In this document: piece by piece, positions 26,635 to 52,706 of the stretch
Numbering within the stretch: the stretch's first letter is position 1
How the letters are laid out: every line of letters starts with the position of its first letter
Source: Gelidibacter pelagius
GTDB lineage: Bacteria > Bacteroidota > Bacteroidia > Flavobacteriales > Flavobacteriaceae
DNA length: 64,000 nt
Assembly (NCBI RefSeq): GCF_017581925.1
Contig: NZ_JAGEVG010000014.1
Coordinates: 1-64,000 of the forward strand
Direction of reading: 5' to 3'
The notes under the pieces: generated by a model
The model's input: the letters and a program-made list of their open reading frames with translations, nothing else
What the model was told of the DNA's origin: nothing
Databases searched by the model: none
Position numbers and translations under genes: made by a program

Positions 26635-27105
26635 TTATGTGTTTTCCCCTGTCGATATAAACATCAGCACGTCATTAATACATCGATCCAAATCATTCAG
26701 AATTTCTTTGGACCAAAACCTGAAAACCGTAAAGCCTTTTTCAGAAAGTTCCTGATTGACTTGTCTGTCCCGTTGCATATTGCGTTCAATCTTAGGAAGC
26801 CAGAATTTGCGATTACTTTTTATAGCATCTTTTCGTTCATCCCAATTATAGCCATGCCAAAACTCGCCGTCGATAAAAATCGCGAGATTGTATTTTTTGA
26901 TGGAGATATCAGGTTTTCCGGGCAATTGTCTGCTGTCGACCCGATAGCGGACGTTTTTACGCCATAAGGCCTTTCTAAACAAAAGTTCAGGTTTGGTGTT
27001 CTTTCCACGGATCTTGCTCATCATTTTTGAGCGTTTCTTGGTGGTGTAAAAACCTGACGCTTCGTTAAATCTTGGGACGATTATGTTGGGTTCTTCGTAA
27101 GTCAT
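26635..27105 (-). CDS. vsr: Very-short-patch repair endonuclease (Vsr family)
   Basis: 156-residue nuclease that nicks 5' of the T in T:G mismatches made by deamination of 5-methylcytosine. Family blocks: 'RSKMMSKIRGKNTKPELLFRKALW', 'YRVDSRQLPGKPDISIKKYNLAIFIDGEFWHGYNW' region (about 60-95) with the catalytic Asp of 'KPDI' and His of 'FWHG', and 'VFRFWSKEI' near the C-terminus. The ATG at 27105 is preferred over one at 27132. No cytosine methyltransferase lies within the window, so it looks like an orphan. A 15-bp palindrome sits 6 bp upstream of the start. Confidence 0.9.
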   Translation of the reverse strand: MTYEEPNIIVPRFNEASGFYTTKKRSKMMSKIRGKNTKPELLFRKALWRKNVRYRVDSRQLPGKPDISIKKYNLAIFIDGEFWHGYNWDERKDAIKSNRKFWLPKIERNMQRDRQVNQELSEKGFTVFRFWSKEILNDLDRCINDVLMFISTGENT

Positions 27106-49646: not shown

Positions 49647-52600
49647 ATGACTTATAATTTTAACGAGATAGAGGCCAAATGGCAAAAATATTGGAAAGAC
49701 CATAAAACTTTTCAGGCAAAAAATCCAGATACCAAAAACTCCCCTCCTTCGGAGGGGTTGGGGGAGGCTTATTATGTTTTGGACATGTTTCCCTACCCAA
49801 GTGGTGCGGGACTCCATGTGGGACATCCGTTGGGATATATTGCCAGCGATATTTATGCGCGTTATAAACGCCATAAAGGTTTCAACGTATTGCATCCTCA
49901 AGGTTATGATAGTTTTGGACTGCCTGCGGAACAGTATGCGATTCAAACTGGACAACATCCAGCAGTTACTACCGAAGAAAACATCAAAACCTATCGCCGA
50001 CAGTTGGATCAAATTGGCTTTTCATTCGATTGGAGTAGGGAAGTGCGAACTTCTGATCCGTCATATTATAAATGGACGCAATGGATTTTCATCCAATTGT
50101 TCGAATCTTGGTATTGTAGACATGCTGACAAAGCATTTCCGATTTCAGAATTAGTTGAGGTATTTTCTAAAGAAGGAAACCAAGCAGTAGAAGCTGTATG
50201 CGATGATAATGTTGAAGCATTCTCTTCTTCAGAATGGAATGCTTTCTCCCCAGAAAAACAACAAGAGATCCTTTTAAAATACAGGCTGACCTATTTGGCA
50301 GAAACTGAAGTGAATTGGTGTCCTGCTTTAGGAACCGTATTGGCCAATGACGAAATTGTCAACGGCGTTTCAGAACGTGGTGGACATTCTGTAGTTAGAA
50401 AAAAAATGACCCAATGGAGCATGCGGATTTCAGCCTATGCCGAACGCTTGCTTCAAGGTTTAAATGATATTGATTGGACAGAATCACTAAAAGAAAGCCA
50501 GCGCAATTGGATTGGGAAATCCATTGGGGCCCAAGTGGAGTTTAATATTCAGAATTCAGAGTTCAAGATTCCTGTGTTTACGACCAGACCTGATACTATC
50601 TTTGGTGTGAGTTTTATGACACTGGCTCCGGAACATGAACTTGTAGAGAAAATTGTAACGGATGATCAGAAATCGGAAATTGAGGCTTATATAAAAACGA
50701 CTGCCAAACGAAGCGAACGCGACCGTATGTCTGATGTCAAAACCATCACGGGGGCGTTTACAGGCGCCTATGCCGAACATCCATTTTCAAAAGAGCCCAT
50801 TCCCATTTGGATTGGCGATTATGTATTGGCGGGCTACGGAACAGGGGCAGTGATGTCTGTACCTTGTGGCGACCAACGAGATTACGATTTTGCGAAGCAC
50901 TTCAATATTCCCATTCCTAATATTTTTGAGGGAATTGATGTCTCGGAAGAAGCGTATGCGTCAAAAGATAATGTGGTCATTGCCAATTCTGATTTTTTAA
51001 ACGGATTACCTTATAAAGAAGCCACTAAAAAAGTCATTTCAGAACTTGAAAAATTAGGTCAAGGCGAAGGGAAAATAAATTACCGATTACGTGATGCGGT
51101 GTTCTCCCGTCAGCGCTATTGGGGTGAACCTTTCCCAGTGTATTACGTGAACGGCATGCCACAAATGATTGACAAAAAATATTTGCCGATCCGTTTGCCG
51201 GAAGTAGAAAAATATTTACCCACCGAAACGGGTGAGCCGCCTTTAGGACGCGCCGATGTTTGGGCGTGGGACACGCTAAAGGGTGAGGTGGTGAAAAATG
51301 AAGATATTGACCATGTGAATGTTTTTCCACTTGAATTGAACACCATGCCGGGTTGGGCGGGAAGTTCTTGGTACTTCTTTAGATATATGGATGCCCAGAA
51401 TGATGAGGTTTTTGCCAGTGAAGAAGCTTTAGAGTATTGGAAAGACGTCGATTTGTACATTGGTGGCAGTGAACACGCCACAGGCCATTTGCTTTACTCT
51501 CGTTTTTGGGTGAAATTTATGAAAGATAGAGGTTTTGTCAACATTGAAGAGCCTTTTAAAAAGCTGATCAATCAAGGGATGATTTTGGGGACGAGTGCTT
51601 TTGTGTATAGAGTAACACCTTTCTCAAAATCGACTCAAGAAGTTTTAGATTTTCCTTTCGGATTATATTTAAGTGAAGGTGTTAAAAATGATATCGAATC
51701 ACATGTAATTGAAGTTGGCTCAATGAATAGAAAATTGGAAGATAACAGTTTCTATCAAACAGTTATAATGAAAATTCAAGATTTGAAAAGTTCAGGTTTT
51801 GACAGTCAAGATTTGTCATTTGGGCTTGTTCCAATTCATGTTAAAGTTCAATATGTAAACGCTTCAGATGAATTAGACATTCAGGGTTTGAAAAATGACA
51901 ATGAATTTGGTGAAGATTTTAAAGACGGTATTTTTATAGGAGAGAGTGGCAAAGTCCTCTCATTTGGAGAGGATTTAGGAGAGGCCTTTAAAGTTGGCCG
52001 CGAAGTAGAGAAAATGTCAAAATCAAAGTTGAATGTCGTTAATCCAGATGCCATTTGTGAGCAATATGGTGCTGACAGTCTTCGTATGTACGAAATGTTC
52101 CTCGGCCCATTGGAACAAGCAAAACCATGGAACACCGCGGGAATTTCAGGTGTCAATGGTTTTTTAAAAAAACTGTGGAAATTGTATCATCAAGGAGAGA
52201 ACGGCAGTTTTTACGTCAACAGTTCCCCTCCTTCGGAGGGGTTAGGGGAGGCTCTAAAAACCCTTCATAAAACCATTAAGAAGGTAGAAGAGGATATCGA
52301 AAGCTTCTCATTTAATACTTCTGTTTCTACATTTATGATTGCTGTCAACGAATTGACGGCTCAAAAATGTACCAGTAAAGAAATTTTGGAGCCTCTGTTG
52401 ATTCTATTATCGCCTTATGCGCCACATATTTCTGAAGAATTATGGAATCAGTTAGGACATAACGAATCCATATCTACTGCAGCATTTCCAGAATTTGATG
52501 CGAAGCATTTGGTAGAAAGCAGTAAGAAGTATCCAATTTCCTTCAATGGGAAAGTAAAATTCACATTGGAACTGCCAACGGACATGTCTAAGGATGACAT

Positions 52601-52706
52601 CGAAAAAGCAGTGATGGCACATGAGAAAACCATAGCACAATTGGAAGGACGTACGCCTAAAAAAGTGATTGTAGTTCCTGGGAAGATTGTGAATATTGTT
52701 GGATAA
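49647..52706 (+). CDS. leuS: Leucyl-tRNA synthetase with in-frame repeat insertions
   Basis: 1019 residues, class Ia synthetase. HIGH motif in 'YPSGAGLHVGHPLGY', KMSKS in 'VEKMSKSKLNVVNPD', CP1 editing domain with 'VFTTRPDTIFG' and 'GTGAVMSVPCGDQRDYDF', anticodon domain 'LWKLYHQ...FSFNTSVSTFMI' region. The Bacteroidota-type insertion near residues 155-215 is present. Three short insertions come from a palindromic repeat: residues 32-41 and 860-869 both read SPPSEGLGEA, and 771-780 read LSFGEDLGEA. A heptamer stretch (50547-50574) encodes 'IQNSEFKI' in the editing domain. Despite these the frame is open and all motifs are intact, so it should be active. Confidence 0.97.
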   Translation: MTYNFNEIEAKWQKYWKDHKTFQAKNPDTKNSPPSEGLGEAYYVLDMFPYPSGAGLHVGHPLGYIASDIYARYKRHKGFNVLHPQGYDSFGLPAEQYAIQTGQHPAVTTEENIKTYRRQLDQIGFSFDWSREVRTSDPSYYKWTQWIFIQLFESWYCRHADKAFPISELVEVFSKEGNQAVEAVCDDNVEAFSSSEWNAFSPEKQQEILLKYRLTYLAETEVNWCPALGTVLANDEIVNGVSERGGHSVVRKKMTQWSMRISAYAERLLQGLNDIDWTESLKESQRNWIGKSIGAQVEFNIQNSEFKIPVFTTRPDTIFGVSFMTLAPEHELVEKIVTDDQKSEIEAYIKTTAKRSERDRMSDVKTITGAFTGAYAEHPFSKEPIPIWIGDYVLAGYGTGAVMSVPCGDQRDYDFAKHFNIPIPNIFEGIDVSEEAYASKDNVVIANSDFLNGLPYKEATKKVISELEKLGQGEGKINYRLRDAVFSRQRYWGEPFPVYYVNGMPQMIDKKYLPIRLPEVEKYLPTETGEPPLGRADVWAWDTLKGEVVKNEDIDHVNVFPLELNTMPGWAGSSWYFFRYMDAQNDEVFASEEALEYWKDVDLYIGGSEHATGHLLYSRFWVKFMKDRGFVNIEEPFKKLINQGMILGTSAFVYRVTPFSKSTQEVLDFPFGLYLSEGVKNDIESHVIEVGSMNRKLEDNSFYQTVIMKIQDLKSSGFDSQDLSFGLVPIHVKVQYVNASDELDIQGLKNDNEFGEDFKDGIFIGESGKVLSFGEDLGEAFKVGREVEKMSKSKLNVVNPDAICEQYGADSLRMYEMFLGPLEQAKPWNTAGISGVNGFLKKLWKLYHQGENGSFYVNSSPPSEGLGEALKTLHKTIKKVEEDIESFSFNTSVSTFMIAVNELTAQKCTSKEILEPLLILLSPYAPHISEELWNQLGHNESISTAAFPEFDAKHLVESSKKYPISFNGKVKFTLELPTDMSKDDIEKAVMAHEKTIAQLEGRTPKKVIVVPGKIVNIVG
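49740..49769 (+). repeat. In-frame palindromic element in leuS, copy A
   Basis: 30 bp: CCCCTCC-TTC-GGAGGGG hairpin followed by TTGGGGGAGGCT. Encodes SPPSEGLGEA (residues 32-41). Differs from copy B by one base. Confidence 0.9.
50547..50574 (+). repeat. Heptamer array inside leuS
   Basis: ATTCAGA, ATTCAGA, GTTCAAG, ATTCCTG: four 7-bp units in the editing-domain linker of leuS, read as part of 'NIQNSEFKIPV'. Confidence 0.6.
51955..51986 (+). repeat. In-frame palindromic element in leuS, copy C (variant)
   Basis: CCTCTC-ATTTG-GAGAGG hairpin followed by ATTTAGGAGAGGCC, a diverged form of copies A and B with the same two-part layout. Encodes LSFGEDLGEA (residues 771-780), just before KMSKS. Confidence 0.75.
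52224..52253 (+). repeat. In-frame palindromic element in leuS, copy B
   Basis: 30 bp, 29 identical to copy A (TTA for TTG). Encodes SPPSEGLGEA (residues 860-869) between two helices of the anticodon-binding domain. Confidence 0.9.

Follow-up and report, generated by a model that had tools for sequence, protein, structure and literature searches.

According to Di Nocera et al. 2013 (PMC3733652), palindromic DNA residing in frame in proteins is known from the Rickettsia palindromic elements (RPEs), cited there, and also from the REPs, i.e., stem-loops of 20–40 bp with a 6–13 bp stem and an unpaired end, occurring solo or in pairs. Some REPs are located inside ORFs, including those for tRNA synthetases and pseudouridine synthases; many of the REP-carrying genes are associated with DNA synthesis, repair and RNA binding, with tRNA synthetases among them (same source). 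In-frame mobile palindromes represent an already known kind of sequence (RPE, REP), and the sequence-only reading of the locus considered here had named the RPEs as its precedent with good reason.

The present locus is a leuS gene harboring three short palindromic elements, situated in a 64-kb stretch of DNA that was analysed as a whole and is referred to below as the window. The element resembles RPEs in being a palindrome inserted in frame into proteins (here LeuRS, with empty alleles in relatives, and 34 listed ORFs); compared by description, it differs from them in its length of about 30 bp, its G-rich tail, its presence in another phylum and the occurrence of the same architecture at the ends of nuclease cassettes. 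Its stem-loop fits the length (20–40 bp) and the stem (6–13 bp) of the REPs, but the unpaired end is TTAGGGGAGG, GTAG and CGTC are absent on either strand, and in the genes tested the element adjoins DUF559 rather than Y1 transposases.

The DUF559 regions invite two further comparisons. With the Vsr-type homing endonucleases they share homology (PDB 3r3p) and occurrence at the same site in distant species (LeuRS, IleRS, RecG), whereas the embedded DUF559 is accompanied by neither intron nor intein according to Pfam and appears to stay in the host protein. Like an intein, the DUF559 nuclease is read in frame within an essential enzyme; unlike in inteins, the insert-bearing LeuRS proteins (L217, L283) lack a splicing domain. 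What is new here is the bracketing of in-frame DUF559 nuclease cassettes by palindromes of the same architecture, an arrangement suggestive of a so far undescribed type of mobile element resident within proteins. No palindromes beside DUF559 are described in the available portions of two papers on this domain (PMC12308824, PMC12907096), and no link between the nuclease and palindromes was found in the accessible text of the literature searched on DUF559 and on in-frame palindromes of Bacteroidota.

Three elements in leuS and their insertion history

The leuS ORF of the window (49647–52706, + strand) codes for a leucyl-tRNA synthetase of 1019 aa, in which Pfam recognizes PF13603, PF00133 and PF08264 and which matches the solved LeuRS 1h3n with E=1.2e-174 (phmmer). 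The features referred to below are as follows:

49647..52706, + strand: leuS, coding for LeuRS of 1019 aa, host of the three elements (ORF, Pfam, phmmer to 1h3n)
49740..49769, + strand: element copy 1, aa 32–41, SPPSEGLGEA, between the N-terminal helix region and the HVGH motif (LeuRS alignment)
50526..50585, + strand: loop opening the CP1 editing domain, aa 294–313, without element or cassette in the window (LeuRS alignment)
51955..51986, + strand: element copy 2, diverged, aa 771–780, LSFGEDLGEA, directly before the KMSKS motif (architecture definition)
52224..52253, + strand: element copy 3, aa 860–869, SPPSEGLGEA, in the loop opening the anticodon-binding domain (PF08264 from 869) (alignment, pattern search)

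Each copy consists of a pyrimidine arm, a short loop, a purine arm, a spacer and a G-rich tail, with a stem of 7 bp, a loop of 3 nt (5 in copy 2) and a total length of 27–30 bp. The 30-mers at 49740–49769 and 52224–52253 differ by a single TTG/TTA change in the spacer, and copy 2 reads, from 51955, TCCTCTC-ATTTG-GAGAGGA-TTTAGGAGAGG with its 7-bp stem. All three are located on the + strand in a single codon phase of leuS, so the presence of three same-phase in-frame copies, noticed initially by eye, is upheld both by the sequence and by the architecture definition. This definition (a pyrimidine-rich arm of >=5, a loop of 2–5, a perfect complement, a short spacer and a purine tail with >=4 G), which, like the hairpin definitions, was set after the copies were known and on these same data, retrieves from both strands of the 64-kb window exactly three elements, all in leuS and all on the + strand. 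In the controls scanned in addition to the window (220 kb in 11 segments of 20 kb, read on both strands) it retrieves one element, giving a control rate of 1 per 440,000 bases.

A search with the 17-mer at <=3 mismatches found only two places, copies 1 and 3, each on both strands, vs. 0.04 expected. None of 300 codon shuffles of leuS had as many G+C-rich hairpins as the real gene (4 records at 2 places; the 60% G+C limit of this test leaves out copy 2), and a hairpin whose arm was >=7 appeared in 2.7% of the 300 shuffles. The draft genome (4.49 Mb, 101 contigs) yielded no further copy at <=2 mismatches to the 17-mer or at <=3 mismatches to the 27-mer.

The history of these copies was followed in a LeuRS alignment of 63 genomes (the window's own and 62 relatives, from 98 searched; 64 rows, the leuS of genome G002 being split over two contigs). 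Copy 1 is present in 1/63 genomes, the window's alone: the site reads NPDTKN-SPPSEGLGEA-YYVLD in the window and, e.g., NNSDKPKYYVLD in other genomes. The alignment identifies copy 1 as an insertion against the aligned empty alleles of all 62 relatives, which bears out the proposal that a repeat family has entered an essential protein in frame. Copy 2 recurs as an identical peptide in G002 and as LSSGEDLGEV in G003 and is missing in the other 60 of the 63 genomes. Copy 3 is recognizable in six (G000, i.e., the window's own genome, G002, G003, G008, G026 and G043) and degraded in G045; a pattern search detected it in further genera too. In a quick LeuRS tree built from 76 rows, all eight members of one clade (SH-aLRT 93) have the forward copy at site 3; this copy is found in 4/9 species of the window's genus and also in G313 and G415. 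Of the three elements, copy 3 is old and has been inherited, copy 1 arrived recently in the lineage of the window, and copy 2 has diverged. Within the family, the 27-mer with <=3 mismatches is present in 31/397 genomes, and the element-holding records include Gelidibacter algens and G. gilvus.

Site positions come from an alignment to 1h3n, on which the statements about loops rest and which would put the leuS sites on the protein surface. A structure predicted by AlphaFold for the window LeuRS from six sequences had a mean pLDDT of 37.6 and was set aside. A separate segment of LeuRS, aa 655–727 (about 51609–51827), before KMSKS, is hypervariable in relatives, ranging from near-missing to ~100 aa with low similarity across genera.

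DUF559 cassettes, free DUF559 genes and the palindromes beside them

In relatives, the LeuRS editing-domain loop before TTRPDT is occupied by a short segment, by one of several unrelated repeat-like peptides or by a DUF559 (PF04480) region of 150–225 aa including the host ends. The DUF559 region was detected at this loop in 11 genomes (10 by profile and Hyunsoonleella ulvae by Pfam) with a patchy distribution. At the equivalent motif of other synthetases, the equivalence being judged by motif position, solo elements occur in ValRS (G379 and two named Flavobacterium) and in IleRS (G328, G373 and Pedobacter). Editing synthetases repeatedly take up mobile DNA in their loops, one such loop being situated at the motif common to LeuRS, ValRS and IleRS.

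DUF559 also resides in frame in two IleRS proteins, one from the window's own genome (G000:C26) and one from G313, in four RecG proteins at one site (G313, G191, G198 and G373), and within an ORF of G280 that resembles a restriction enzyme. In 29 relatives' loci, the ileS site is empty or short: 24 give 22–25 aa, and five give split matches with gaps <=30 bp. Both IleRS (G000, G313) and the LeuRS loop display the pattern of homing elements, i.e., distant hosts have the same site occupied while empty alleles are interspersed among them. A profile search of the window's genome returned no strong DUF559 match outside ileS and three weak ones. A weak match in the window itself (26656–26784, – strand; 26 bits, 171-aa ORF) is probably a conserved related protein rather than a cassette, since many of the searched genomes yielded comparably weak matches.

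Among LeuRS, IleRS and RecG there are 17 cassettes, and the limits were found for 16 of them. The inverted element is present at the 5′ end in eight of these 16 and the element at the 3′ end in nine; six carry it at both ends and five at neither, against the control rate given above. Where present, the end palindromes are inverted with their tails pointing outward. The ileS cassette of the window's genome has the element at both ends, TCCTCC-TTT-GGAGGA-TTTAGGAGG and TTTCCCC-TTT-GGGGAAA with a tail, reminiscent of leuS copy 2. At orthologous cassette ends (RecG, IleRS 3′), some stems differ yet stay paired; such changes with pairing kept are only suggestive, the hairpins having been chosen by complementarity. 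In the DUF559 tree, the RecG inserts (100/99) and the IleRS inserts (97/84) form supported groups, and the LeuRS inserts do not fall into a single supported clade. The Pfam scan of two inserts and of the LeuRS proteins L217 and L283 revealed no splicing domain, only DUF559 and LeuRS or nuclease domains. E, D and H are invariant in eight aligned DUF559 domains. The LeuRS insert of G010 (L056) is a DUF559 remnant reading EFEGKE, without the conserved nuclease residues and without palindromes by the definition used, as if a cassette had decayed to a plain protein domain. Another observation concerns L354 (G280:C2:17500-23000) and L146, where a restriction-enzyme-like ORF contains in-frame element copies along with DUF559 bracketed by other palindromes.

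Free DUF559 genes were surveyed in 25 genomes chosen as relatives or element carriers, which gave 23 distinct free ORFs, truncated ones and paralogues with partly shared flanks included. The element lies within 300 bp (<=300 bp) of 9/23 of them, in comparison with 1/227 control genes and 0/20 Y1_Tnp genes; the sole positive control gene is a leuS neighbour whose flank reaches copy 1. With less strict hairpin criteria, the counts were 15/23 for DUF559, 4/227 for the controls and 1/22 for Y1_Tnp (Fisher p = 4e-15 and 2e-5, respectively). Elements of the same architecture end many in-frame DUF559 cassettes that lack a splicing domain, and they adjoin free DUF559 genes. As to the identity of the nuclease, the DUF559 profile retrieved from the PDB 3hrl (3.7e-31) and 3r3p, ‘Mobile intron protein’ (5.7e-7), the latter of which we take to be a phage homing endonuclease. 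DUF559 matched six phage records, two of them with annotated hint-domain proteins under the match.

We consider it likely that the leuS segments are solo copies of mobile Bacteroidota palindromes whose architecture recurs at the ends of many DUF559 cassettes. The nuclease may drive their spread: DUF559 would cut at or near such sites, and repair would copy cassettes and solo ends into the break, the solo palindromes being the non-autonomous form; this scheme of cutting and copying is offered as a tentative one. The palindromes showed no target-site duplication, excision or transposition, and it is their distribution that suggests mobility. An odd repeat in a single gene is thereby turned into a testable hypothesis for palindrome spread in Bacteroidota, and DUF559 gains a candidate role.

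The link between DUF559 and the palindromes is an association, and both may gather at tolerant sites. It is quite possible, if somewhat doubtful, that cassettes and palindromes merely co-reside in tolerant loops and spacers without DUF559 being the mover. The same LeuRS loops house several repeat-like peptides that are unrelated, so that these loops are tolerant in general; the exact element is also missing at both ends of 5/16 cassettes and near 14/23 free genes. Mere co-residence is at odds with the placement of the palindromes, where present, at cassette ends, inverted and with outward tails, in LeuRS, IleRS and RecG, and with their occurrence beside free DUF559 far oftener than beside control genes.

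A larger repeat is encountered in another family of the order (L040, L046 and L051 in G062; L042 in G086; L041 in G094), opening with the same CCCCTCC-TTC-GGAGGGG hairpin as the present element but followed by TGG...GACGGGGTGG. A further clade of free DUF559 genes, e.g., at L292, L293 and L298, is flanked by structures that resemble it on visual inspection.

DNA-level conservation of copy 3 and the Y1 transposases

Codons of copy 3 were compared in 14 taxa that carry it in forward orientation at site 3 and set against 60 downstream codons. Same-residue codons are identical in 720/755 comparisons at site 3 and in 2458/4815 downstream; in six taxa picked without the DNA pattern, the respective figures are 120/125 in the element and 413/789 downstream, i.e., 95–96% vs. 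51–52% identity. The best 9-codon window downstream has 0.65 identical codons. The 3′ arm (0/98) and the tail (0/84) are free of changes, whereas the 5′ arm has 3/98, the loop 2/42 and the spacer 3/42; the synonymous differences are confined to the spacer codon. Such near-frozen synonymous sites are not expected of a neutral relic; they reflect either a constraint at the nucleic-acid level or refreshing by conversion or re-insertion. An inserted palindrome can persist near-unchanged in its DNA while the surrounding gene diverges.

The first of these options would mean that the hairpin plays a nucleic-acid role in leuS, either through the folding of the mRNA or as a DNA target of some host protein, with purifying selection maintaining it. 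The codon identity of copy 3 relative to the downstream codons in the 14 taxa speaks for it, but its presence is patchy (6/63 genomes, with close relatives lacking copy 3), base pairs are broken in G003 and the sequence has been lost in G045, and repeated re-insertion or gene conversion would likewise maintain uniform copies. On balance, such a role seems unlikely.

That we are dealing with classical REPs mobilised by Y1 (RAYT) transposases is improbable. REPs inside ORFs, including those of tRNA synthetases, are known (PMC3733652), and Y1_Tnp matches were found in 19/25 genomes searched, but the element lacks the GTAG or CGTC tag. Of the 30 Y1_Tnp loci taken, with those lacking a clear central ORF left out, none of 20 genes had the element within 300 bp and one of 22 had a similar hairpin; the Y1 transposase was set aside as the mobiliser on these counts. 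In the window's own genome, a Y1_Tnp match (G000:C8:138053-138382, in L348, G000:C8:134500-141500) lies in frame within a 1276-aa ORF, by eye like an Eco57I-type methylase, the Y1 domain being an apparent in-frame mobile insert.

Phase, orientation and host genes across Bacteroidota

An exact scan of the phylum returned at least 118 stretches with at least 127 distinct copies, among which orthologous sites recur. A copy was regarded as coding if its ORF had >=200 aa, with >=50 aa before and >=40 aa after the element. By these thresholds, 93 of the 127 copies among the matches listed are outside long ORFs and 34 are coding, in accord with the earlier characterization of the element as an intergenic repeat in Bacteroidota.

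Of the 34 listed coding copies, 11 are read forward (SPPSEGLGE), 18 reversed (SPNPSEGGE) and five in other frames. Four of the six frames of the element are stop-free with the TTA spacer and all six with TTG, and phase 2 is therefore expected in half of the copies at most; it is found in 29/34 of those listed (p = 2e-5 against one half) and, after collapsing the orthologous sites by hand, in 23/28. The anticipated non-randomness of the coding copies holds for phase; solo elements are inserted both forward and reversed.

The palindrome family can be summarized as a pyrimidine/purine hairpin of 5–8 bp with a loop of 2–5 nt, a short spacer (TTA/TTG here) and a G-rich tail. Read in phase 2 in either orientation, it is stop-free and encodes a short Ser/Pro/Glu/Gly-rich linker, and we infer that in-frame copies survive because of these two properties, i.e., that their phase reflects a survival filter. 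The palindrome could then serve both as a linker and as a DNA signal for the nuclease or repair. Whether one is dealing with a new mobile class, comprising in-frame, unspliced DUF559 cassettes ended by inverted palindromes in aminoacyl-tRNA synthetases and RecG, with the solo ends being the Bacteroidota palindromes and the three of leuS among them, is a conjecture we hold with some doubt.

At leuS site 3, G240 and G414 have reversed copies, as does Aequorivita soesokkakensis on a separate branch; the two orientations sit at adjacent points of a single loop, and in G288 this loop harbors another repeat-like peptide, PVLSGAEGG. Since both orientations and a further peptide share one loop, the site-3 loop appears permissive and the EGLGEA reading not selected. 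The suggestion that selection favours the EGLGEA peptide and that the element spreads through a useful reading in LeuRS, drawn from the common phase of the three copies in the window leuS, is very improbable: many forward site-3 copies read SPPSEGLGE, but these rows were picked by peptide or DNA pattern, the reversed reading is as common (18 vs. 11), the same loop is reversed on two LeuRS branches, and the peptide itself varies (PPWEGLGE in G204, ATPSEGLGE in G003, PSLEGLGE in G415, a degraded form in G045).

Pfam domains were recognized in 32 of the 34 ORFs hosting the listed coding copies. The host proteins include LeuRS, ValRS, IleRS, a class II synthetase, AroA, IcmF, PurL, RluD- and TrmA-like enzymes and others; aminoacyl-tRNA synthetases account for 13 of the 34 listed coding copies (6 in LeuRS, 5 in ValRS, 1 in IleRS and 1 in the class II enzyme).
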